Of a stretch of DNA of 35,473 nt, positions 23,900-35,473 are shown piece by piece. How positions within the stretch are numbered: position 1 is the stretch's first letter; the number at the start of each line of letters is the position of its first letter. Made by a program: the position numbers and the translations under genes. The notes below the pieces were generated by a model, which was not told the DNA's origin, ran no database searches, and saw nothing but the letters and a program-made list of their open reading frames with translations. Source of the stretch: Terriglobales bacterium (lineage in GTDB: Bacteria; Acidobacteriota; Terriglobia; Terriglobales; Acidobacteriaceae); NCBI GenBank assembly GCA_035764005.1, contig DASTZZ010000087.1, positions 1-35,473 of the forward strand, written 5' to 3'.

Positions 23900-26800
23900 A
23901 TGCTCAAAAAGCTGTTGCTGATAATTTCGTTCATCGCTTTCTTAGCCGGTCAGGCGTTTAGTTCATGTACGGCACCGCAGAATGCGATTGAAGCTGAAAA
24001 TTGCAATCCCGGCTCAAACAACTGGATTGTGAACAGCATCGATTCAACGATTCAGGGTTTTGCGACTGATATCAGCTACAACGTTGGGCAGTCGGTAAAT
24101 TTCAAGATCAACACGAGCGCGAGCAACTATCAGATAACTATTTTCCGCATGGGGTACTACCAGGGAAGTGGTGCCCGGCAGATCGCGACCGTTACGCCTT
24201 CTGCGAAGCTGCCACAAAGCCAGCCGGCTTGCCTTACCGATTCGGCCACGGGCCTCGTGGATTGCGGAAACTGGGCAGTATCAGCCTCGTGGACGATTCC
24301 AAGCAATGCAGTATCTGGCATTTATTTCGCCGATATCGTTCGCGGTGATACCGGCGGAGCCAATCAAATTTTCTTCATTGTCCGCGACGATAGCAGTCAC
24401 TCGGACGTTTTGTTCCAAACATCGGACGAGAGCTGGGAGGCCTACAACGGCTACGGTGGGCACAGCTTTTATGGACCGACAACAGGTTTTGATCTGACTA
24501 ACCGCGGTTATAAAGTCAGCTACAACCGGCCATTTGCATGGATAGAGAATCAAACGCAGCCGTTCTATGCGGAATACCCGATGGTGCGCTGGCTTGAGGA
24601 AAATGGTTACAACGTTAGTTATTTCAGTAGTGTGGATGCTGCACGGAGCGGCGCGCTCATACAGAACCACAAGCTATATCTCTCCGTCGGACACGACGAA
24701 TACGTTTCGGGTCCGAAAAGGACAAGTGTAGAGGCTGCTCGCGATGCCGGCGTTAATCTTGCGTTCTTCAGCGGGAATGAGTTCTTTTGGAAGACGCGTT
24801 GGGAAAACAGTATCGATGGCACCGGCACTCCGTATCGGACCCTGGTCTGCTACAAGGAAACTCTTGGAGCAACTTCTAACCCTCCGGCCACTACTGCTGT
24901 TGACCCGCAAGACCCGCCAACTTGGACAGGCACCTGGCGGGATCCCGTCAAGAGCCCGCCAGCCGATGGCGGCCGACCGGAAAACGCCTTGACGGGTCAA
25001 CTATTCCGAGTCAATGGCCCGGGCAATGACAACACTAATCTGTCGATAAAAGTTCCCTCCGCAATGGGAAAGTTTCGCTTTTGGCGTAATACTCCCAATG
25101 TTGCGACGCAAGCTGCCGGAGCGACTTGGACTCTGCCCGGTGGCACTCTCGGTTATGAATGGGATGCTGAGGAGGATAACGGCGCGCGCCCGGCTGGCCT
25201 CTTCGACCTCTCAAGCGCAACCTACAACCTCACAACTGATTATCTGCAGGACGCCGGTGGACTCTACGGAACGGGAACGGCGACGCACAAGCTCTCACTT
25301 TATCGAGCTCCGAGCGGTGCACTGGTGTTTGGCGCCGGCACAGTGCAATGGTCTTTTGGCCTGGATTCTTCCAGCGGCGGGACCGCGGACGTAAACATGC
25401 AGCAGGCAACAGTCAATCTGTTTGCTGACATGGGCGTCCAGCCGGCGACCCTGCAGGCCGGATTACATCCTGCAACCCAATCGACTGACACTACGCCGCC
25501 TGTATCTACGATTACCGCTCCAGCGAACGGCACATCTGTTCAAGCTGGAACGACGATCGCCGTTACCGGAACCGCCAGCGACGTTGGAGGCTTGGTTGCC
25601 GGGGTCGAAATCTCGGTCGACAATGGAGCAACTTGGCATCCGGTGACCGGAACCACAAGTTGGTCTTATACGTGGGTTGCAAATACGGGAGGGACGTTCA
25701 CTCTTTTAAGCCGTGCGGTGGATGACAGCGCCAATTTGGAAACGCCGTCCGGCGGACCATCGGTAAATATCGTAGGTGTTGCTTCCGTAACTGCAAGTCC
25801 GAGCACTTTATCTGGAGGAGCTTCGTCGCAAGGAACCGTCACTCTAAGCGCCCCAGCCGGAACTGGTGGTACCAGCGTGACGCTAACATCGAGCGTACCA
25901 TCAGTTGCTGCAATACCTGGTTCAGTTGTAGTTCCAGCAGGAAGCACGACCGCGACTTTTCCCATCACAACAGTTCCTGTCGGTGTCTCCACAAGCGTTG
26001 TCATTTCTGCGAAATTCGCAAGCACTGCCACAACGACACTTACAGTTAACGCGGTCTTTCCACCTGCGCCGGGAGTTGTCGATATCGATGCGGTAGTCTC
26101 GGCGCATCAAGGGACCTCCTCTTCGACAATCACGAGCGGGGCGTTTTCTACCGCTGCGCCAAATGAGCTGGTGTTGGCGCTCATATCCAGCGATGCGCTT
26201 CAGCAAAACATCACGGTCTCGGGAATTACGGGAGGTGGTCTCAGTTGGACGATGGTCCAGCGCGCGAACGGCCAGAATGGCACAGCCGAAGTCTGGCGAG
26301 CGTTGGCGCCGAGCGTGTTGACGAAGGTTACTGCAACCGCGACCTTCTCGCAGTCGTCTCCCAGTGCTGATATCACAATCATGACGTTTGCTGGGGTAGA
26401 TACGAGCGGCACGAATGGCTCAGGCGCGATTGGTAATTCCGCCTCCGCGAGCGCTGCGAGCGGGGCGCCAACGGCTTCACTCACCACGACTCGAAACAAT
26501 TCCTGGGTAATTGGGGTAGGCGCGGATAATGCGAACGCGATTGCGAGGACTGTCGGTCCCAACCAAGTGTTGATCGATTCCTATCTCAGTCCCTTGGGAG
26601 ATACATTCTGGTCCCAGAGGCAGTCGGCCCTCGTGTCGAGTTCGGGCTCGACGGTCACGATCAATGACACAGCTCCGACTGGTGACAGTTATAACCTGGC
26701 CATCGTTGAAGTCAGGCCGCCGTTGGTCGGACAGTTCAGCATTTCAGGAAATCTATCCGCCAACGGTGCCGGCGCAACCGTCACGCTCAGCGGAGCAATG

Positions 26801-29800
26801 TCGCAGACAACCACCGCGGATGCTGCAGGGAACTATTCTTTTGTATCCCTTGTAAGTGGATCGTACACGGTCACGCCAAGCAAGGCTGGATTCGCCTTTA
26901 GCCCTGCCAGTCAATCAGCCACCATCACAAGTTCAAATATCTCGAACCTCAACTTCACGGCATCGCAAGCGGTCTCAATTTCTGGAACTATTAGTCCCGC
27001 AAGTGCTGGCAGCGGCGCTACCATAACACTTAGTGGGGCTGCCTCTGGCACTGTAACGGCCGACGCGTCGGGTAACTATTCGTTCAACACGACCGGAAAC
27101 GGAACCTATACCATCACACCCAGCAAGAATGGCTTTGACTTTACCCCGTCATCGCGGACCGTCACCGTGGCCGGCGCAAACATTAGCGGAGTGAACTTCA
27201 CGGCACAGGCAGTTATTACTACAAGCTTGGCAATTGATGTGAAGACCTCTAAGGACGGAACCACCGCAAGCTCCTCAATCAGCTCATCTGCGTTCTCTAC
27301 CAGTTCGCCAAATGAGCTGTTGCTGGCGTTCATTTCAACCGATTACCTCGGTGGCGCAAATACAACCGTCAGCGATGTGGCTGGGGGCGGACTAACCTGG
27401 AGTTTGGTCGCGAGGGCGAATACTGAGAGTGGGGACGCCGAAGTTTGGCGTGCTTTTACTCCTGCGCCGCTGACCAATACTACTGTTACAGCAACTTTGT
27501 CTCGAAGCGTTGTCAGCTCCATCACCATCATCACCTTCACGGGTGTTGATCTGACGGGTACGAATGGTTCCGGAGCTATTGGCGCAACTGCGAGTAAGGG
27601 TGCCACGAATGGTGCTCCGAGCCTCTCGGTGGTTACTACTCGCAACAATTCGTGGGTGTTCGGTGTAGGTAACGATTTCGACAACGCAATAGCGAGAACG
27701 CCGTCTTCAGGACAGACCGTTGTCCACCAGGATCTCACCTCGGCAGGTGATACCTATTGGGTGCAGATGCAGAACGCCACCACTCCTTTGAGTGGCACTA
27801 CAGTAGCAATTAGCGACAGTGCCCCAACGTCTGATCGGTGGAACTTAGCCGTTGTAGAGGTTCTCCCCTCACTTGGTCCGTACAGCATTTCCGGTACTTT
27901 AACTCCTGCGCTCAGTGGAGTTACCATCGCGCTTAGCGGATCTGTAAATGCGACCGCAATACCAGATGGATCCGGAAATTATACTTTTTCGGGACTTCCT
28001 AACGGGTCATACACAGTGACTCCTTCGAAAGCAGGATTTAACTTTAGCCCTGCCTCCCAGAACGTGATCGTTAATGGCGCAAGTGTAACCGCGATCAACT
28101 TCACGGCAACGGCACAGACCTTCAGCATTTCCGGCACTGTGTCTGCGATTGGCGCAAATGCAACCGTGGCTCTCGGTGGTTCGGGCACCGCATCAACCAC
28201 CGCAGACGCTTCCGGCAATTACTCCTTTACAGGGCTGTCAAACGGAACGTACACGGTTACTCCGTCGAAATCCGGAGTTGTATTCAATCCGACTAGCCAG
28301 AATGCGACAGTAAACGGTAGCAATGTTTCCGGACTGAACTTCACGGCGGCACAAACGTTCAGCATTTCCGGCAATCTGTCCACGACCGGCGCGAATGCCT
28401 CGGTGGCTCTCAGTGGTTCGGGCACGGCCTCTACGACAGCGGACGCTTCCGGCAACTACTCATTTACAGGATTGTTAAACGGAACGTACACGGTTACACC
28501 ATCCAAGTCTGGAGTGACATTCAATCCGACAAGTCAGAATGCGACGGTCAATGGCAGCAATGTTTCTGGGCTGAACTTCACAGCGGCACAAACCTTCGGT
28601 ATCTCCGGCAATCTGTCGGCGACTGGCGCGAATGCAACAGTCGCTCTCAGCGGTTCGGCAACTGGGTCTACGACGGCGGATGCCTCCGGGAACTACACAT
28701 TTACAGGATTGTTAAACGGAACATACACAGTTACTCCGTCGAAGTCCGGGGTGATATTTAATCCGACAAGCCAGAATGCGACGGTGAATGGCAGCAATGT
28801 TTCGGGAGTGAACTTCACCGCAACCGGACAAACATTCAGCATTTCCGGCAATCTGTCTGCAACCGGTGCGAACGCTACGGTGGCTCTCAGCGGTTCGGCA
28901 ACCAGCTCTACCACCGCGGATGCCTCCGGAAACTACACGTTTACCGGACTGACAAATGGAACGTACACAATTACACCGTCGAAGTCTGGAGTGATATTCA
29001 ATCCAACAAGTCAGAATGCGACGGTGAATGGTAGCAATGTTTCGGGAGTAAACTTTACCGCCACGGCGCAGACGTTCAGCATTTCCGGTAATCTGTCCAC
29101 GACCGGCGCGAATGCCTCGGTGGCTCTCACTGGTTCGGCCACCGCCTCTACGACAGCGGATGCGTCCGGGAACTACACGTTTACGGGACTCTCAAACGGA
29201 ACATACACGCTGACTCCGTCGAAGTCTGGAGCGACATTTAGTCCAACGAGCCAGAATGCGACGGTGAACGGTAGCAATGTTTCTGGAGTGAACTTCACGG
29301 CGGTATCGTCGATCGCGGGCTTGGCGATCGACGCCAACAGCTCCAAAGACGGAACCACGGCCAGCACCACAATCGCAACGCCAGCTTTTTCCACTGTTTC
29401 TGGCAATGAGCTCCTGCTGGCTTTCATTGCCACCGATTACCTGAGCGGCGCCAACACAACTGTTTCCAGCATTTCGGGCGGGGGACTTACATGGAATCTG
29501 GTGAAGCGCACGAATGTACAGAGCGGTGACGCGGAGATCTGGGCGGCGTTTGCTCCTTCAGCGCTGACAAATGTTACCGTAACTGCCACTGTGTCGCAGA
29601 AGGTGGTCTGTTCCATTACTGTCACGAGCTTTACCGGTGTGGACACCACCATCGGCACAACTCTTCCCAATGCCGTTGGAGCTACCGGAACTGCAAATGC
29701 CAGAACAGGAGCTCCTTCTGCTGCTCTGGTGACTACACGTAACAACTCTTGGGTGTTTGGCGTGGGTAATGATTACGACAATGCCGTCGCACGCAGCGCC

Positions 29801-29971
29801 GGCACAGGCCAGACGGTCGTGCATCAATTCCTGACTCCAACCGGTGACACATACTGGGTTCAGATGCAGAACGCGACTACGCCTCTGAGTGGCACTTCTG
29901 TAAGCATCAATGACGTCGCACCGACGGGTGATCGCTACAACCTCACTACAGTCGAGATACGTACTCCGTAG
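23900..29971 (+). CDS. Giant exported modular protein with N,N-dimethylformamidase-like domain and repeat modules
   Basis: The 2023-residue protein starts with a signal peptide (about 1-21). Residues about 35-520 resemble the C-terminal domain of the N,N-dimethylformamidase large subunit: FRMGYYQGSGARQ, DVLFQTSDESWEAYNGYGG, YLSVGHDEYVSGPKR and FFSGNEFFWKTRWE. That enzyme binds iron through two Tyr and a Glu; Tyr residues near 200-215 and the Glu of GNEFFWK are candidates. Ig-like stretches follow (about 529-722). The order is then A1 (723-942), R1-R2, A2 (about 1105-1326), R3-R8 (about 1327-1804) and A3 to the end. A modules share NELLLAFI.TDYL, GGGLTW and TTRNNSWVFGVGND; R modules share ISG..., TADASGNYSF and YTVTPSKSG. 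No membrane anchor, LPXTG or PEP-CTERM signal ends the protein, so it may be released or held by partners. The catalytic activity and ligand are unknown. Confidence 0.85.
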   Translation: MLKKLLLIISFIAFLAGQAFSSCTAPQNAIEAENCNPGSNNWIVNSIDSTIQGFATDISYNVGQSVNFKINTSASNYQITIFRMGYYQGSGARQIATVTPSAKLPQSQPACLTDSATGLVDCGNWAVSASWTIPSNAVSGIYFADIVRGDTGGANQIFFIVRDDSSHSDVLFQTSDESWEAYNGYGGHSFYGPTTGFDLTNRGYKVSYNRPFAWIENQTQPFYAEYPMVRWLEENGYNVSYFSSVDAARSGALIQNHKLYLSVGHDEYVSGPKRTSVEAARDAGVNLAFFSGNEFFWKTRWENSIDGTGTPYRTLVCYKETLGATSNPPATTAVDPQDPPTWTGTWRDPVKSPPADGGRPENALTGQLFRVNGPGNDNTNLSIKVPSAMGKFRFWRNTPNVATQAAGATWTLPGGTLGYEWDAEEDNGARPAGLFDLSSATYNLTTDYLQDAGGLYGTGTATHKLSLYRAPSGALVFGAGTVQWSFGLDSSSGGTADVNMQQATVNLFADMGVQPATLQAGLHPATQSTDTTPPVSTITAPANGTSVQAGTTIAVTGTASDVGGLVAGVEISVDNGATWHPVTGTTSWSYTWVANTGGTFTLLSRAVDDSANLETPSGGPSVNIVGVASVTASPSTLSGGASSQGTVTLSAPAGTGGTSVTLTSSVPSVAAIPGSVVVPAGSTTATFPITTVPVGVSTSVVISAKFASTATTTLTVNAVFPPAPGVVDIDAVVSAHQGTSSSTITSGAFSTAAPNELVLALISSDALQQNITVSGITGGGLSWTMVQRANGQNGTAEVWRALAPSVLTKVTATATFSQSSPSADITIMTFAGVDTSGTNGSGAIGNSASASAASGAPTASLTTTRNNSWVIGVGADNANAIARTVGPNQVLIDSYLSPLGDTFWSQRQSALVSSSGSTVTINDTAPTGDSYNLAIVEVRPPLVGQFSISGNLSANGAGATVTLSGAMSQTTTADAAGNYSFVSLVSGSYTVTPSKAGFAFSPASQSATITSSNISNLNFTASQAVSISGTISPASAGSGATITLSGAASGTVTADASGNYSFNTTGNGTYTITPSKNGFDFTPSSRTVTVAGANISGVNFTAQAVITTSLAIDVKTSKDGTTASSSISSSAFSTSSPNELLLAFISTDYLGGANTTVSDVAGGGLTWSLVARANTESGDAEVWRAFTPAPLTNTTVTATLSRSVVSSITIITFTGVDLTGTNGSGAIGATASKGATNGAPSLSVVTTRNNSWVFGVGNDFDNAIARTPSSGQTVVHQDLTSAGDTYWVQMQNATTPLSGTTVAISDSAPTSDRWNLAVVEVLPSLGPYSISGTLTPALSGVTIALSGSVNATAIPDGSGNYTFSGLPNGSYTVTPSKAGFNFSPASQNVIVNGASVTAINFTATAQTFSISGTVSAIGANATVALGGSGTASTTADASGNYSFTGLSNGTYTVTPSKSGVVFNPTSQNATVNGSNVSGLNFTAAQTFSISGNLSTTGANASVALSGSGTASTTADASGNYSFTGLLNGTYTVTPSKSGVTFNPTSQNATVNGSNVSGLNFTAAQTFGISGNLSATGANATVALSGSATGSTTADASGNYTFTGLLNGTYTVTPSKSGVIFNPTSQNATVNGSNVSGVNFTATGQTFSISGNLSATGANATVALSGSATSSTTADASGNYTFTGLTNGTYTITPSKSGVIFNPTSQNATVNGSNVSGVNFTATAQTFSISGNLSTTGANASVALTGSATASTTADASGNYTFTGLSNGTYTLTPSKSGATFSPTSQNATVNGSNVSGVNFTAVSSIAGLAIDANSSKDGTTASTTIATPAFSTVSGNELLLAFIATDYLSGANTTVSSISGGGLTWNLVKRTNVQSGDAEIWAAFAPSALTNVTVTATVSQKVVCSITVTSFTGVDTTIGTTLPNAVGATGTANARTGAPSAALVTTRNNSWVFGVGNDYDNAVARSAGTGQTVVHQFLTPTGDTYWVQMQNATTPLSGTSVSINDVAPTGDRYNLTTVEIRTP
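28118..29310 (+). repeat. Tandem near-identical 237-240 bp coding repeats
   Basis: Five consecutive units start at 28118, 28355, 28592, 28832 and 29072. All are in frame and encode R4-R8 of the giant protein. Units share long identical DNA runs (for example around GGCAGCAATGTTTC and TTCAGCATTTCCGG). More diverged copies precede them: R1 from 26732, R2 from 26969 and R3 from 27878. Unit lengths are multiples of three, so gain or loss of a unit keeps the frame. Confidence 0.9.
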
Positions 29972-29973
29972 GA

Positions 29974-29993
29974 TTGGCGAAATCCACCGCCAA
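29974..29993 (+). other. Weak hairpin after the giant gene
   Basis: TTGGCG and CGCCAA pair across eight bases directly after the stop codon. There is no T-run, so termination here is doubtful and read-through into the genes from 30200 is possible. Confidence 0.3.
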
Positions 29994-30199
29994 CCTATCG
30001 CTATCTCCGCTGAGTGGCAAAGGGTGTTGCCGTGTATGCAATATTTTGCACATTCAAAGGCGGAGCAAGCGAGGTAGTGCGGCGTAAGTGCCTTCGAATG
30101 AATGTGCTGCAGGTGGTCTCAAAACTGCAACCACATAAGCTGCCGACGCCCGTTCATCGTTACATGTTCTAGCCACTTGGAACAGATCCCGACAACAGA

Positions 30200-31498
30200 A
30201 TGGATTCGGAACAGCACAGCGGACATAAAGATAGACCTCGCGTGAAAACGGATAGCTCTCATCCCGAGTCAGCGCTCCCTGAGCAGTTCCGCGCTTATTT
30301 CGGCAGTGCTCCCGATTCTATTGACGGTTCAGTTTGGAGCGATGGACGCCTGGTGCAGATGTTCCAATCGATCGAAATGCTTCGGACGGAGCGATATGTT
30401 GCATCCGGCTGGACTGCTCCGCTCGCTAGACAGGTTTATTACTGGCTTCGACCGCTGCTCACGCGTCATTTCCGACAGTTCATTCATCGGCAAATCTTTC
30501 GTTCCAGAGTCAAGTCGAATGTCCCTGGGTGGCCAATTGATTGTTCCGTCGATCACTTATTCCGAGTAGTGATGGGATTAGTGATCGAGATAAGCGGCGA
30601 GGAGGAGGTTCCTTTCATTTGGTTTTGGCCGGAGGGGCACCCCGCAGCTGTAATGATGACGCACGATGTCGAAGGAAGCATCGGTGCTGCAGGCTGCAAA
30701 ATGCTCATGGACCTCGATGATTCTTTCCGCATCCCCGCCGCGTTTCAGCTCATACCGGAAGGTCCTTATGATCCGATTGCGGAACTGGTAAATGAAATTC
30801 GTGGCCGAGGTCATGAAGTGAACCTTCACGATCTGGACCATGATGGCCGTCTTTACGGAAATGCTGCACGGTTTGCCGAGCGGGCCAAAAAAATAAGGCA
30901 CTACGCCGAAGTTTATGGCACCAGAGGTTTTCGCGCCGGATCCATGCACCGCAATCAGGACTGGTTACCGGAATTGCAAGTTGAATATGACATGTCGGTT
31001 CCCACCGTGGCTCACATGGAGCCACAGGGTGGCGGATGCTGCAGTGTAATGCCTTACTTTGTAGGCAATGTTCTTGAGCTGCCGCTTACCACTATCCAGG
31101 ATTACGGATTGTTCAGCATCCTGAAACAATCATCAATCGAACTTTGGAGCAAGCAGATAGAAGCCATTTTGAAACAGAATGGACTCATTAGTTTTATTGT
31201 TCACCCGGATTATGTTATTGAAACGCCGCAGCAAGAGACTTATTCCGAACTTCTCGATTACCTTGCACAGCAGATAAATGCGCATGGCCTGTGGGCCGCT
31301 CGTCCGGGCGACATCAACGAATGGTGGCGCCAACGGCGGTGCATGCAGCTGGTGCGGACTGCTTCAGGGTGGGCAATAGAAGGTGAGGGCTCTGACAGAG
31401 CCCGGATCGCCTATGCCAGCATGAGCGGTGGAGAAGTTAGCTATCGATGGGATAAATCAACGGTTGAAGCTCGACGTTGTGACGAGCTTCTGGTGTGA
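30200..31498 (+). CDS. Polysaccharide-deacetylase-like (NodB-fold) protein
   Basis: The 432-residue protein has no signal peptide. An N-terminal helical region of about 145 residues has no assignment. The NodB-like domain starts with MMTHDVEG, where Asp156 would be the catalytic Asp of motif 1 (a DVE/DVD variant instead of TFDD). Motif 2 is GHEVNLHDLDHDG, in which His210 and His214 match the metal-binding H-x3-H. GFRAGSMHRNQDWL near 250 matches the conserved R..P/G region. LISFIVHPDYV near 330-340 carries the late-motif His. Such enzymes remove N- or O-acetyl groups from glycans using a metal ion. A short beta-rich tail ends the protein. It is 42 bp upstream of the acyltransferase gene, so both probably act on one surface glycan; whether the enzyme is active is not certain. 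Confidence 0.75.
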   Translation: MDSEQHSGHKDRPRVKTDSSHPESALPEQFRAYFGSAPDSIDGSVWSDGRLVQMFQSIEMLRTERYVASGWTAPLARQVYYWLRPLLTRHFRQFIHRQIFRSRVKSNVPGWPIDCSVDHLFRVVMGLVIEISGEEEVPFIWFWPEGHPAAVMMTHDVEGSIGAAGCKMLMDLDDSFRIPAAFQLIPEGPYDPIAELVNEIRGRGHEVNLHDLDHDGRLYGNAARFAERAKKIRHYAEVYGTRGFRAGSMHRNQDWLPELQVEYDMSVPTVAHMEPQGGGCCSVMPYFVGNVLELPLTTIQDYGLFSILKQSSIELWSKQIEAILKQNGLISFIVHPDYVIETPQQETYSELLDYLAQQINAHGLWAARPGDINEWWRQRRCMQLVRTASGWAIEGEGSDRARIAYASMSGGEVSYRWDKSTVEARRCDELLV

Positions 31499-31540
31499 GC
31501 GGGATTAGAAACACTCCTGTTTGCTGTAGGAAAGATTGGG

Positions 31541-32587
31541 ATGAAAGATATCGAAGTTATAGCCCCCTTGGGGGATCCCCGGTGGTCGGGGTTTGTCGAC
31601 CTCCATCCCAAGGCTTCTATCTTCCACACCAGGGAGTGGATCGCTGCGCTCAAAAACACATATGGCTATTCGCCTTTTGCGATTGCCAGGATTTCGCAAG
31701 GCGGCGAAATACGAGCAGCAATTCCTGTTTGTGCTGTCGAAAGCTGGCTGACAGGGAAACGATTGATATCTCTTCCGTTTGCGGATCACTGTGAACCGCT
31801 TGTTGACAGTTCCTCCGAGATGCTGAACCTCGTCGCTGCACTTGAAGTTATCGGTCGAGAAGGTAAGTACAACTACGTTGAACTCCGACCGCTCAATGAC
31901 TCATTTGAAGCAGAAGATAGTGGTCTGCATGTTTGTGAAAGTGCGTCTTTCTCTCACCACCTCGTCGATCTACGTCCGGACATCCAGGAACTGTTCGGAC
32001 ACCTTCATCCCAGCTGCGTGCGCCGCAAGATTCGCCGAGCCGAACAACAACGCCTTACTTATGAAAGCGGCCGCTCGGAGGGCATGGTGCAGCGTTTCTA
32101 TCGGTTGATGGTGATGACAAGAAGACGGCACAACCTGTTTCCGCAACCAATCGTTTGGTTTCAGAACTTAGCACGTGAGTTTGGGGAAAGATTCACGGTG
32201 CATTTGGCCCGCAAAAGTAACGATACAGTTGCAGGCATTATCACCATTCAGCACGGAGATAAGTTGGTGTACAAGTACGGAGCATCCGATGAGACACGGC
32301 ACGCTTTGGGTGGTATGCCGTTTCTTTTCTGGAATGCGATGTTGCAGGGAAAGTTTGCGGGCGCGACTGAGTTCGATCTGGGTCGCACAGATAACGAGAA
32401 CCGCAGCTTGGGCACATTTAAAGAGCGCCTTGGGGCCGAAAGTCGGCAACTAAAGTACTTTTGTGTCCCCCCAAATCTGAGACGCAACTCTCAGTTTCGC
32501 GTCCGAGGCTTTGTTCGGTTCTTTACACACTTACCGAGTCCGCTTTGTTGTGCCGCAGGAAAGCTTTTATACAAACACGCAGCTTAA
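31541..32587 (+). CDS. FemAB-like GNAT acyltransferase
   Basis: The 348-residue cytoplasmic protein matches the FemAB/GNAT (Acetyltransf_6-like) group associated with exopolysaccharide loci, including the PEP-CTERM/exosortase-linked subfamily. The N-terminal half contains FHTREWIAALKNTYGYSPF near 27-45. The middle has HPSCVRRKIRRAEQQ near 152-166, and the C-terminal half has AGIITIQHGDKLVYKYGASD near 225-245 and EFDLGRTDNENRSLGTFKE near 280-298, all family hallmarks. The likely reaction is transfer of an acyl or aminoacyl group to a polysaccharide or lipid-linked sugar. GGAAAG lies six bases before the ATG. The second giant gene starts 16 bp after its stop. No exosortase gene is present in the window. 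Confidence 0.85.
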   Translation: MKDIEVIAPLGDPRWSGFVDLHPKASIFHTREWIAALKNTYGYSPFAIARISQGGEIRAAIPVCAVESWLTGKRLISLPFADHCEPLVDSSSEMLNLVAALEVIGREGKYNYVELRPLNDSFEAEDSGLHVCESASFSHHLVDLRPDIQELFGHLHPSCVRRKIRRAEQQRLTYESGRSEGMVQRFYRLMVMTRRRHNLFPQPIVWFQNLAREFGERFTVHLARKSNDTVAGIITIQHGDKLVYKYGASDETRHALGGMPFLFWNAMLQGKFAGATEFDLGRTDNENRSLGTFKERLGAESRQLKYFCVPPNLRRNSQFRVRGFVRFFTHLPSPLCCAAGKLLYKHAA

Positions 32588-32603
32588 AGGCAGATAGTGA
32601 TCG

Positions 32604-35473
32604 ATGACTTTGATCAAATATAGAGCTCACACTTTTCGATGCTTCCTCACCATCGCAGCACTGACACTGCTCTCGATGTCAGCTTATGCCGCAATCCAGA
32701 TCGATGCGACCGTGAATGTCGATCGTTCTTCGGCATCGACCACGATCCAGTCACCGGCGTTTTCGACGGTAAGCGCAAACGAGCTCTTATTGGCCTTTGT
32801 AACAGGCGATTATCTCTCGGGAGCCAATACTCAAGTTTCGTCGATTTCGGGCGCAGGTTTAAATTGGCAACTGGTTGTCCGCACGAATACTCAATCGGGA
32901 ACATCAGAAATTTGGCGCGCCTTTTCGCAAAATCCACTCACGAATGCGACTGTCACGGCGACTCTCTCTCAGTCCGTCGTCTCGTCGATGACGGTAATGA
33001 GCTTTGCCGGCGTCGATACCTCAGGTTCTGCCGGATCGGGCGCAGTCGGAGCAATTGGCAGCGGCAACTCACGGTCCGGAGCGCCAACTGCATCCTTAAC
33101 AACAACAAGGGACGGATCATTGGTGTTGGGAGTCGCAAATGATTACGACAATGCGATAAGCCGAACTGTAGGTTCAGGTCAGAGTCTGATCCACCAATAT
33201 CTGACGCCCACTGGCGATACGTATTGGGCGCAGATGCAAACCGCTCCCATCCCGCTTGCTGGGACGGTCGTGAAGATCAACGATACGGCTCCGACGACAG
33301 ATCGATACAACCTCAGCATTGTTGAAGTGCTTGCTGCCGCGTCTGCTGGAAGCACCTACAGTATTTCTGGAGTAATCAGTCCCGCATCGACTTCCTCTGG
33401 TACTACTGTGACGTTGTCGCAGAACGGAGCGACGGTTACGTCGGCAGTAGTGGACAGCACAGGATCCTACGTTCTGAACAATTTGCAGAACGGCACGTAC
33501 ACGTTAACGCCCGCAAAAACCAATGTAGTGTTCACTCCAGCGAGTGAATCCGTGACGGTGAATGGGGCGAACGTCACCGCACCGGGTATTACAGCAACGG
33601 CTCAGACTTGGAGCGTTGCAGGCAATATCAGCCCCGCTGCTGCGGGGATCACGCTCTCATTGTCTGGAGCATCAACGGCCACAACTACTACAGATAGCTC
33701 TGGTAATTACACTTTCACTGGCCTGAACAATGGCAGTTATACGATTACTCCATCCCAAAGTGGATTGTCGTTCAACCCAGCTTCACAGCCCATCAGCGTC
33801 AATGGCGCGAACGTGAGCGGGGTTAACTTTACGAGTACGAGTGCAACGTGGAGTATTTCGGGAGGAACAACGCCTCCGCTTTCCGGCGCAACTATTGCGT
33901 TAAGTGGAGCCTCCGCGGCAAGCACCACAACGGCTGCCGATGGATCGTACAGCTTCTCCGGTTTGGGGAACGGCAGCTACACGATCACTCCTTCCTATCC
34001 GGGGACCACCTTTAGCCCAAGTTCGTTAATCGCGACGATCAACAACGCCAGTGTCACGGGAGAGAATTTCACCGATCAGCAGCAGAGCTCAGCACCCTTA
34101 GCAATGGATGCGAAGGCTTTCGGCGATACTTCATCTGCTAGCGCCACAGTCACTACAGGAGTCTTTTCGACAGCACAACCGAACGAGCTTCTCCTCGCTT
34201 TCGTGGCCACGGACTATCTTTCGGGGGCAAACACAACGGTCAGTGCCATTACTGGTGGCGGACTTACCTGGACGTTTGTCCGCCGTACCAATGTTCAGAG
34301 TGGAACAGCAGAGGTTTGGCGAGCATTTGCTGCGGCTCCATTATCCAATGTGACGGTGGCTGCGACCCTGTCACAAAAGGTCTACTCCTCGATTTCAGTT
34401 GTGAGTTTTATCGGAGTGGATGTTTCTGGATCAAACGGTTCAGGAGCGATTGGAGCGACTGCATCGGCCAACGCTACTTCCGGAGCGCCGAAAGTAACGC
34501 TGACAACGACTCGAAATGGATCTTGGATATTTGGGGTCGGCAACGACTTTGACAACGCGATTTCCAGAACCGCAGGTACTGCGCAGACAGTTTTGCATCA
34601 GGATCTGTCGGCGAGTGGTGATACTTATTGGGTTCAGATGCAGAATTCTCCTACTGCACTGAGCGGGACGTCGGTGACGCTCAACGACACGGCACCGACT
34701 TCAGATCGTTACAACTTAACTGCTGTAGAAGTGCTTCCGGCAGGTGGGAGCGGAATTTCGTCTCCGCCGTCCGTCAGCATGATAGCTCCGGCTCCTGCAG
34801 CCACAATTGCCGGCCTCGTCACGGTTGCGGCCAATGCGAGCAGCTCGACTTCGACGATTGCGAGCCTACAGTTCGTGCTCGATGGAGCGAATTTGGGAAG
34901 TCCTGTTACTGCTGCGCCATACTATGCGACTTGGGATACCACGAAGAGTACTTCAGGCACCCACACATTGAGCGCTATCGCGTTCGATGCAACAGGCTTG
35001 AGTGCAAGTTCGTCTGCGCTAACTATAACTGTGGATAACTCTGGCAATCCCGCGGTTGTCGGTAGCTGGTCCGCCCCTGCGAGCCTCAATGCGGTCGCAG
35101 TGAACTTGATTCTTCTTCCGAACAACAAGCTGCTTTATTACGATGATGGCGCCACTCCTGCCGTCTGGGATTATCAACAGAATGTGTTTACCGCTACTCC
35201 GACGAATCCCGATCTGTTCTGCTCGGGACACGCTTCACTAGCAGACGGAAGAATCCTGGTAGTCGGAGGCTATGGCGATGGCAGCGGAAACATCGGGATA
35301 GCTAATGCCGAGATCTTCGATGCGACGAACAACACATGGACCACAGTTCCTAGCATGAAGTACAAGCGTTGGTATCCCACGGCAACAACGCTGTCTGACG
35401 GAAGGATTTTGGTTACGGCGGGATGGCAGACCAGCGAGCACACCAACGCTGGCATACCGGAGATTTACAATCC
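32604..35473 (+). CDS. Second large exported modular protein with galactose-oxidase/kelch-type propeller (3' end off window)
   Basis: An uninterrupted frame runs from ATG 32604 to the right edge (956 complete codons), so the stop lies outside. A signal peptide (about 1-31, ending MSAYA) is followed by an A module (about 31-249), three R modules (about 251-334, 335-414, 415-494), a second A module (about 495-713) and an Ig-like module (about 714-815) with SVSMIAPAPAATIAGLVTV and SGTHTLSAIAFDATG. The last ~135 residues start a kelch propeller like galactose/glyoxal oxidase: NNKLLYYDD, FCSGHASLADGRILVVGG, MKYKRWYPTATTLSDGRIL. Copper-radical oxidases of that family oxidise alcohols to aldehydes; the catalytic Tyr and Cys lie beyond the edge. 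AAAGG lies upstream but with long spacing. It shares modules with the giant gene at 23900 and appears co-transcribed with the deacetylase and acyltransferase. Confidence 0.85.
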   Translation, partial: MTLIKYRAHTFRCFLTIAALTLLSMSAYAAIQIDATVNVDRSSASTTIQSPAFSTVSANELLLAFVTGDYLSGANTQVSSISGAGLNWQLVVRTNTQSGTSEIWRAFSQNPLTNATVTATLSQSVVSSMTVMSFAGVDTSGSAGSGAVGAIGSGNSRSGAPTASLTTTRDGSLVLGVANDYDNAISRTVGSGQSLIHQYLTPTGDTYWAQMQTAPIPLAGTVVKINDTAPTTDRYNLSIVEVLAAASAGSTYSISGVISPASTSSGTTVTLSQNGATVTSAVVDSTGSYVLNNLQNGTYTLTPAKTNVVFTPASESVTVNGANVTAPGITATAQTWSVAGNISPAAAGITLSLSGASTATTTTDSSGNYTFTGLNNGSYTITPSQSGLSFNPASQPISVNGANVSGVNFTSTSATWSISGGTTPPLSGATIALSGASAASTTTAADGSYSFSGLGNGSYTITPSYPGTTFSPSSLIATINNASVTGENFTDQQQSSAPLAMDAKAFGDTSSASATVTTGVFSTAQPNELLLAFVATDYLSGANTTVSAITGGGLTWTFVRRTNVQSGTAEVWRAFAAAPLSNVTVAATLSQKVYSSISVVSFIGVDVSGSNGSGAIGATASANATSGAPKVTLTTTRNGSWIFGVGNDFDNAISRTAGTAQTVLHQDLSASGDTYWVQMQNSPTALSGTSVTLNDTAPTSDRYNLTAVEVLPAGGSGISSPPSVSMIAPAPAATIAGLVTVAANASSSTSTIASLQFVLDGANLGSPVTAAPYYATWDTTKSTSGTHTLSAIAFDATGLSASSSALTITVDNSGNPAVVGSWSAPASLNAVAVNLILLPNNKLLYYDDGATPAVWDYQQNVFTATPTNPDLFCSGHASLADGRILVVGGYGDGSGNIGIANAEIFDATNNTWTTVPSMKYKRWYPTATTLSDGRILVTAGWQTSEHTNAGIPEIYN

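Follow-up and report, generated by a model that had tools for sequence, protein, structure and literature searches.

Four genes at the end of a Terriglobales contig raise the question of whether two giant proteins with shared repeat modules form one system with the two glycan-modification genes that lie between them, as an earlier note had proposed from the DNA. The stretch of 35,473 nt analysed here (the window) makes up contig C87, one of 131 in a 5.1-Mb assembly. The four genes follow one another on the + strand, where the note had placed them, in the order p1, NodB-like gene, FemAB-like gene and p4, separated by gaps of 228 nt (p1/NodB), 42 nt (NodB/FemAB) and 16 nt (FemAB/p4). Site counts within 29850-32700 are uninformative on operon ends (no sigma-70-like site vs 2.2 in shuffles, and three terminator-like sites vs 2.6), and none of the 18 upstream ORFs scanned in the window belongs to a glycan-synthesis family. 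The features are listed below; DMFA denotes the dimethylformamidase-type and GO the galactose-oxidase-type domain, and A and R the two kinds of repeat.

23900..29971, + strand: p1, probably exported, with the order DMFA, Big_7, A1, two R, A2, six R, A3; 2023 aa (ORF, Pfam, module alignment)
24134..25366, + strand: DMFA2_C (N,N-dimethylformamidase-type) domain of p1 (PF20254, 321.9 bits; same place by genome search)
26081..26719, + strand: A1 module of p1, residues 728-940 (module alignment)
27230..27868, + strand: A2 module of p1, residues 1111-1323 (module alignment)
27884..29317, + strand: six R units of p1 (module alignment; five are tandem 235-nt DNA copies at 28110-29298)
29324..29968, + strand: A3 module at the end of p1, residues 1809-2023 (module alignment)
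30200..31498, + strand: NodB-like CE4-fold deacetylase (motifs and fold)
31541..32587, + strand: FemAB-like GNAT-fold transferase (PF13480, PF02388, TIGR03019-like)
32604..35471, + strand: p4, probably exported, with the order A4, three R, A5, Big_7, GO start; 956 aa, open at the contig end (ORF, Pfam, NCBIfam, module alignment)
32697..33335, + strand: A4 module of p4, residues 32-243 (module alignment)
33360..34088, + strand: three R units of p4, end approximate (module alignment)
34101..34739, + strand: A5 module of p4, residues 500-712 (module alignment)
34995..35471, + strand: galactose-oxidase/GlxA-type domain, start only (Pfam, NCBIfam, alignment)

Two modular giants and their catalytic-type domains

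Both giants begin with a stretch that reads as signal-peptide-like, and these hydrophobic N-termini suggest that p1 and p4 are probably exported. The repeats that the note had described as common to them are borne out by alignment: the five A modules (three in p1, two in p4) are 53-68% identical in pairwise comparison, with alignment scores of 543.5-752.5 against a shuffle maximum of 78 (ten pairs, 100 shuffles each), and the eleven R units (eight in p1, three in p4) are ordinary CarboxypepD_reg/SdrD_B-type domains by Pfam. A3 reaches the stop codon of p1, whose C-terminus has no membrane stretch. That A modules were recently copied from one giant to the other was considered and rejected: each of the five has its nearest relative in another genome. 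At 28110-29298 the 235-nt R unit stands five times in tandem, four copies being 83-86% identical to the reference copy, a pattern pointing to recent amplification within p1. The same genome also holds a second DMFA giant that lacks A modules (L055 8179-12732, contig C116 of G000) and a separate galactose-oxidase-like protein (L053 1147-3120, contig C37).

The two giants carry different catalytic-type domains, again as the note had held. In p1, DMFA2_C (PF20254) covers residues 79-489 and far exceeds its Pfam cut-off of 27 bits. A profile of the DMFA family matches the N,N-dimethylformamidase of Paracoccus (6lvb, E 1.2e-05) and an N-acetyl-(R)-beta-phenylalanine acylase (8i5a, E 7.4e-13), which places p1 in the same domain family; 6lvb and 8i5a are small-molecule amidases, whereas p1 is a modular and probably exported giant. 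In the Paracoccus enzyme, according to the available excerpts of the structural study (PMC7686228), iron is bound by Y399, Y440 and E521, the H519A exchange abolishes activity, and N547 is suggested to stabilise the intermediate. The counterparts of H519, E521 and N547 (6lvb numbering, counted by hand along the alignment) are invariant in 15 of 15 DMFA domains, an alignment that omits the broken second DMFA stretch of L103. The Y399 counterpart is likewise an invariant Tyr in 15/15, but in a stretch where the alignment is very weak, and the alignment to 6lvb gave no position for Y440 or E657.

The catalytic-type domain of p4 is cut by the contig end. Kelch_1, Kelch_6 and Kelch_4 stand above their Pfam cut-offs, Glyoxal_oxid_N falls slightly below its own (35.9 vs 37.5 bits), and the GlxA model NF052501 gives 67.1 bits against 800 for the truncated domain. 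The full-length GO domain of a p4 relative, L036, has as its best match 4unm (E 7.8e-57), which we take to be GlxA. The copper site of galactose oxidase consists of a Cys, two Tyr and two His. The corresponding Cys, Tyr, Tyr-His and His are kept in all 13 aligned GO sequences that reach them, and the window copy shows the Cys and the first Tyr before the contig ends. The GO-like E-set domain (PF09118) has its sole match in the assembly in another protein; that of p4 would fall past the contig end. Matches of the GO query in L037 and L049 were dropped, as they were judged to be matches to the query's C-terminal repeats rather than oxidase domains. In Streptomyces, GlxA serves the producer's own glycan, as described in the portions available of two reports (PMC11022532, PMC4736821). 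Like GlxA, which acts there with the glucan synthase CslA, p4 appears to be a secreted GO-type kelch oxidase, its export being probable only. Unlike GlxA, p4 has its oxidase domain fused to A and R modules, and whereas the partner of GlxA is a cellulose-synthase-like enzyme, the neighbours of p4 are NodB, FemAB and the DMFA giant.

The NodB-FemAB pair and its kinship with exosortase-type loci

The two genes between the giants encode a NodB-like deacetylase and a FemAB-like transferase, as had been claimed. NodB has no Pfam match at E<=0.01; an AlphaFold2 model and structure comparison give it a CE4 fold, one that also matches ArnD and peptidoglycan deacetylases. Read against the classical CE4 metal/catalytic motif, the window copy has THDVE, HDLxH and HPDY-type motifs; in the second motif the first His is replaced by Gln in 4 of 14 aligned rows, and the motif is absent in L068. 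FemAB matches PF13480 (49.4 bits, cut-off 22) and PF02388 (25.6 bits, cut-off 24), and the best of its FemAB models is that of the PEP-CTERM systems, TIGR03019 (112.9 bits, cut-off 260.35 not reached); the peptidoglycan-type model NF047883 gives 43.7 bits, far under 500.

That the middle genes are a glycan-tailoring pair is supported by their distribution. Among 100 genomes of the family (matches counted at E<=1e-20), NodB occurs in 24 and FemAB in 29, of which 24 score at least 370 bits ('strong'); NodB and strong FemAB, 24 each, coincide in 20 genomes (Fisher p 1.7e-13). A class-wide sample holds NodB in 62 of 299 genomes, and 56 of its 68 NodB matches were analysed as loci, the omitted ones being those below 346 bits, three in genomes already covered and one contig-edge piece. 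Within the stretches analysed, strong FemAB is present in 35 of these 56 loci and an exosortase in 9. Pair loci carry glycosyltransferases, a flippase, asparagine synthase, sugar epimerases, a sugar transferase and a UDP-sugar dehydrogenase, families assigned through one representative per gene cluster. In this family NodB and FemAB form a genuine pair, probably one that tailors a glycan.

The note knew of no named system with this layout, which holds only in half. NCBIfam does name a NodB (TIGR03006), a FemAB (TIGR03019) and a PrsT (TIGR02917) for XrtA/PEP-CTERM systems, which resemble the pair loci in having deacetylase and FemAB side by side among glycan-synthesis genes; both window proteins nonetheless stay below the equivalog cut-offs (NodB 17.8 bits against 276.2 for TIGR03006). 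The likeness goes further at two relatives' loci, which have an exosortase, small proteins with a VPEPS tail and a PrsT-like protein. In L038 a GO giant, FemAB, NodB, an exosortase, a small protein with VPEPS tail and membrane stretch, and a PrsT-like protein run in one direction, and L078 has FemAB, NodB, an exosortase, a pair of such small proteins and one PrsT-like protein; the PrsT-like proteins score 250.5 and 280.5 bits against a cut-off of 312. In the relatives G027 and G093 an exosortase adjoins the NodB-FemAB pair. The exosortases of the relatives resemble XrtC, XrtW and XrtA, all below those cut-offs. Within the family sample exosortase scores fall into two classes, most at ~197-270 bits and others at ~100-177; the lower class, 25 genomes cut by eye after the scores were seen and with the weak matches of G050 and G066 omitted, goes with NodB and with FemAB (Fisher p 5e-5).

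In the window genome itself (G000, 97.5% complete) the exosortase family PF09721 has no match, nor has it any in G061, G040, G033 or G058. Membership of the PEP-CTERM system is not assigned, because the window genome gave no exosortase match. p1 ends in an A module and has no PEP-CTERM tail, and p4 is incomplete; exosortase sorting of p1 was considered and set aside on the missing tail and the missing exosortase match. Giants of the DMFA and GO kinds are not known from the XrtA/PEP-CTERM system. The kinship of the tailoring pair to the PEP-CTERM exopolysaccharide pair is plain, and the locus is best read as a variant of known exosortase-type exopolysaccharide (EPS) loci, though its genome has no exosortase match. 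Among the papers searched, none was found that joins exosortase, Acidobacteria and exopolysaccharide, dimethylformamidase with galactose oxidase, or exosortase with FemAB.

Distribution of the A module and association of the giants with the pair

The A module, of ~213 residues, has no convincing Pfam match and is spread over records titled as Acidobacteria/Terriglobia, Arthrobacter and its relatives, Geobacter-type bacteria, methanotrophs and a single Burkholderiales MAG. Its best Pfam E-value is 0.002, in 2 of 84 modules, and no family is found in more than three; the best PDB match has E 0.045 with a 5-row profile and 0.44 with the 84-row profile (an alignment without the short L118 module), and among the NCBIfam matches listed for the window A modules none reaches E<=0.01. 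When 84,980 species, each represented by one genome, were scanned, 41 loci came up; 26 are acidobacterial by title and the remaining 15 are titled otherwise: Arthrobacter, Paenarthrobacter, Sinomonas, Pedococcus, Specibacter, Geomonas, Geomesophilobacter, a Desulfuromonadales MAG, Methylomicrobium, Methylobacter and a Burkholderiales MAG. The module is present in 11 of the 100 family-sample genomes. Removal of identical modules reduced 59 A proteins to 52 distinct ones (L127 and L128 yielded none), of which 13 carry DMFA and 15 carry GO, 28 together; by Pfam, ten other A proteins include three with lysyl oxidase and two with GH16. The lysyl oxidase matches (PF01186, 26.0-34.4 bits, cut-off 20.4) lie on L093 419-3307, L124 8744-11521 and L126 8630-10582, from Methylomicrobium, Specibacter and Methylobacter records.

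The idea that A is only a sorting tail was rejected on its placement: of the 46 A proteins with both ends, 24 have a module no more than 10 residues from the C-end and 20 have one no more than 130 from the N-end; 5 have both and 7 neither. A second module, 'B', of ~205 residues with NVNGNEA..., EWSG and NGELIFGYTF stretches, was seen in A proteins of L034, L038, L041 and L050; its likeness to A is weak (hhalign probability 25, E 8e-4). In Arthrobacter terricola a PF01522 deacetylase with fn3 (L110 14979-16820; identified by Pfam on ten proteins of L110 and L112) lies 4.3 kb behind an A-GO-A gene. The idea that such a deacetylase regularly accompanies the A-GO-A gene of actinobacteria was discarded, since a homologue of the deacetylase part was not found in the other loci searched. 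Contig C33 of G056 holds an A protein of 2591 residues (L045 7266-15038), with a deacetylase-like stretch and DUF4082-like modules by eye, together with a FemAB gene.

Whether the giants go with the pair was examined by presence and by distance. Fisher tests of presence over the 100 family genomes (15 pairs, p uncorrected) associate A with DMFA (p 3e-7), DMFA with GO (p 0.005), A with FemAB (p 0.02), A with GO (p 0.03) and NodB with DMFA (p 0.05), and give p 0.09 for A with NodB; GO is not associated with NodB (p 0.12) or FemAB (p 0.25), nor A with the lower-scoring exosortase class (p 0.55). Twelve family genomes have NodB or FemAB plus DMFA, GO or A (G005 is excluded, its FemAB being a remnant), and in 7 of them the two kinds lie within 35 kb on the same contig, against 0.66 expected; without the window genome the count is 6/11, with 0.58 expected. 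Within 15 kb of the pair the counts are 4/12 (p 0.0002) and, again without the window genome, 3/11 (p 0.0024). Class-wide, NodB and DMFA occur together in 19 of 299 genomes and lie within 35 kb in 5 of the 19 (expected 0.48). Leaving out the window genome, they do so in 4/18 (expected 0.45, p 0.0008), species not being independent and three of these four near cases coming from one genus, and within 15 kb in 2/18 (p 0.015). The two samples overlap in a few genomes.

Seen from the other side, the stretches analysed around 56 class-wide NodB loci hold DMFA in two, A in one and GO in none. The earlier note had named as a check the co-occurrence of A-module proteins with NodB/FemAB pairs, and in the stretches examined both genes are near 5 of the 52 distinct A proteins and are not found together for the other 47, A modules occurring mostly in other contexts. 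The full four-gene layout was found on none of the other contigs examined. The genome of an isolate, Acidobacteriaceae bacterium KBS 83 (G040), does contain NodB, FemAB, DMFA and a GO gene bearing A modules. Partial layouts are DMFA-NodB-FemAB in L035; GO-FemAB-NodB in L038; a FemAB remnant followed by abutting DMFA and GO giants in L041; and NodB-FemAB-A protein in L102, whose tail, cut by the contig end, looks GH16-like by eye and has no GH16 listed by Pfam at E<=1e-6. In L107, titled Burkholderiales, 70 nt separate a DMFA giant from the GO protein with A modules that follows it. In L163 (G135) a DMFA giant, with DUF4082 and R units as spacers, is divergent from GT1, GT2, FemAB, NodB and a further GT2, beyond which come an O-antigen-ligase-type protein, another GT2 and a flippase; the neighbourhood is of Wzx/Wzy type. 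Proteins with ASH/HYDIN-type repeats recur near L034, L041, L049, L080, L081, L084 and L085 (two gene clusters, each scanned through a single representative). The association of the giants with the pair is real but occasional, found in a minority of loci. What the note had observed in the DNA is confirmed; its interpretation of the four genes as one system is partly supported, with the enrichment within 35 kb in two samples on its side and the minority of loci and unrepeated full layout against it.

Probable tailoring of a finished glycan and the alternatives

On balance we think it somewhat probable that this locus tailors exopolysaccharide, its exported enzymes working on the glycan once it is complete. 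In the cytoplasm, judging by the chemistry of the families, NodB would remove acetyl groups from amino sugars in a precursor of the glycan, and an aminoacyl or acyl group would be added by the FemAB-like enzyme. Outside the cell, if p1 and p4 behave as their relatives do, the iron-type amidohydrolase domain of p1 may remove acyl or formyl groups from glycan amides and the radical-copper oxidase domain of p4 may turn an alcohol into an aldehyde. The A and R modules would have no catalytic role and would serve as spacers and as parts for binding or anchoring, so that the two enzymes stay in one matrix. What the data show is the anatomy of the genes, their domain families, the conservation of active-site positions, the pairing of NodB with FemAB and, in relatives, the enrichment near such pairs and near genes for glycan synthesis; export, what the enzymes act on, the function of A and the sequence of reactions are inferred. 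The arrangement suggests that the giants finish, and possibly harden, the coat outside the cell.

The alternative to which we give the most weight, at a rather low but appreciable probability, is that p1 and p4 are secreted for foraging, as enzymes or adhesins directed at polymers from outside (of plants, fungi or other bacteria), adjoining the pair loosely through shared regulation or by chance. The GH16 enzymes that carry A modules, the many A modules away from the pair, the independence of GO from NodB and FemAB by presence, and the upstream ORFs devoid of glycan-synthesis families all agree with foraging. It is harder to square with the enrichment of giants near the pair in both samples, with the DMFA giant in the Wzx/Wzy-type neighbourhood of L163, and with a closest solved GO relative of GlxA type, which in the available parts of the Streptomyces reports works on the producer's own glycan. 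It is distinctly improbable that the substrate of NodB and FemAB is peptidoglycan or a lipid-linked glycan of the surface in place of EPS, with the giants acting there: FemAB is matched best by the model of the PEP-CTERM systems and many relatives sit among EPS-type glycosyltransferases and flippases, against which stand the faint likeness of FemAB to the peptidoglycan-type model and the match of the NodB fold to ArnD and peptidoglycan deacetylases. That the giants are simply repeat-rich surface proteins, adhesins or spacers with inactive enzyme domains, we hold to be very improbable indeed. Their many R and A units, the quick expansion of R copies and a p4 domain not visible whole would fit such a role, but the H519, E521 and N547 counterparts are invariant in all the DMFA domains, and all 13 GO sequences that reach the copper site retain its positions.

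The preferred reading, tailoring of the cell's own finished glycan, may be carried further to a self-curing EPS, an extension that we regard as unlikely in this full form. NodB inside and DMFA outside would free amines, the oxidase would make aldehydes, and A would dock both enzymes on the polymer; with amines and aldehydes on one matrix, imine cross-links would form. The occurrence of A on two kinds of copper oxidase, the galactose-oxidase and lysyl-oxidase types, fits a collagen-like enzymatic curing.

The locus ties giants of amidase type and oxidase type to a known kind of exopolysaccharide-tailoring pair. If these enzymes do act on the matrix of their own producer, bacteria could set or harden a biofilm enzymatically.
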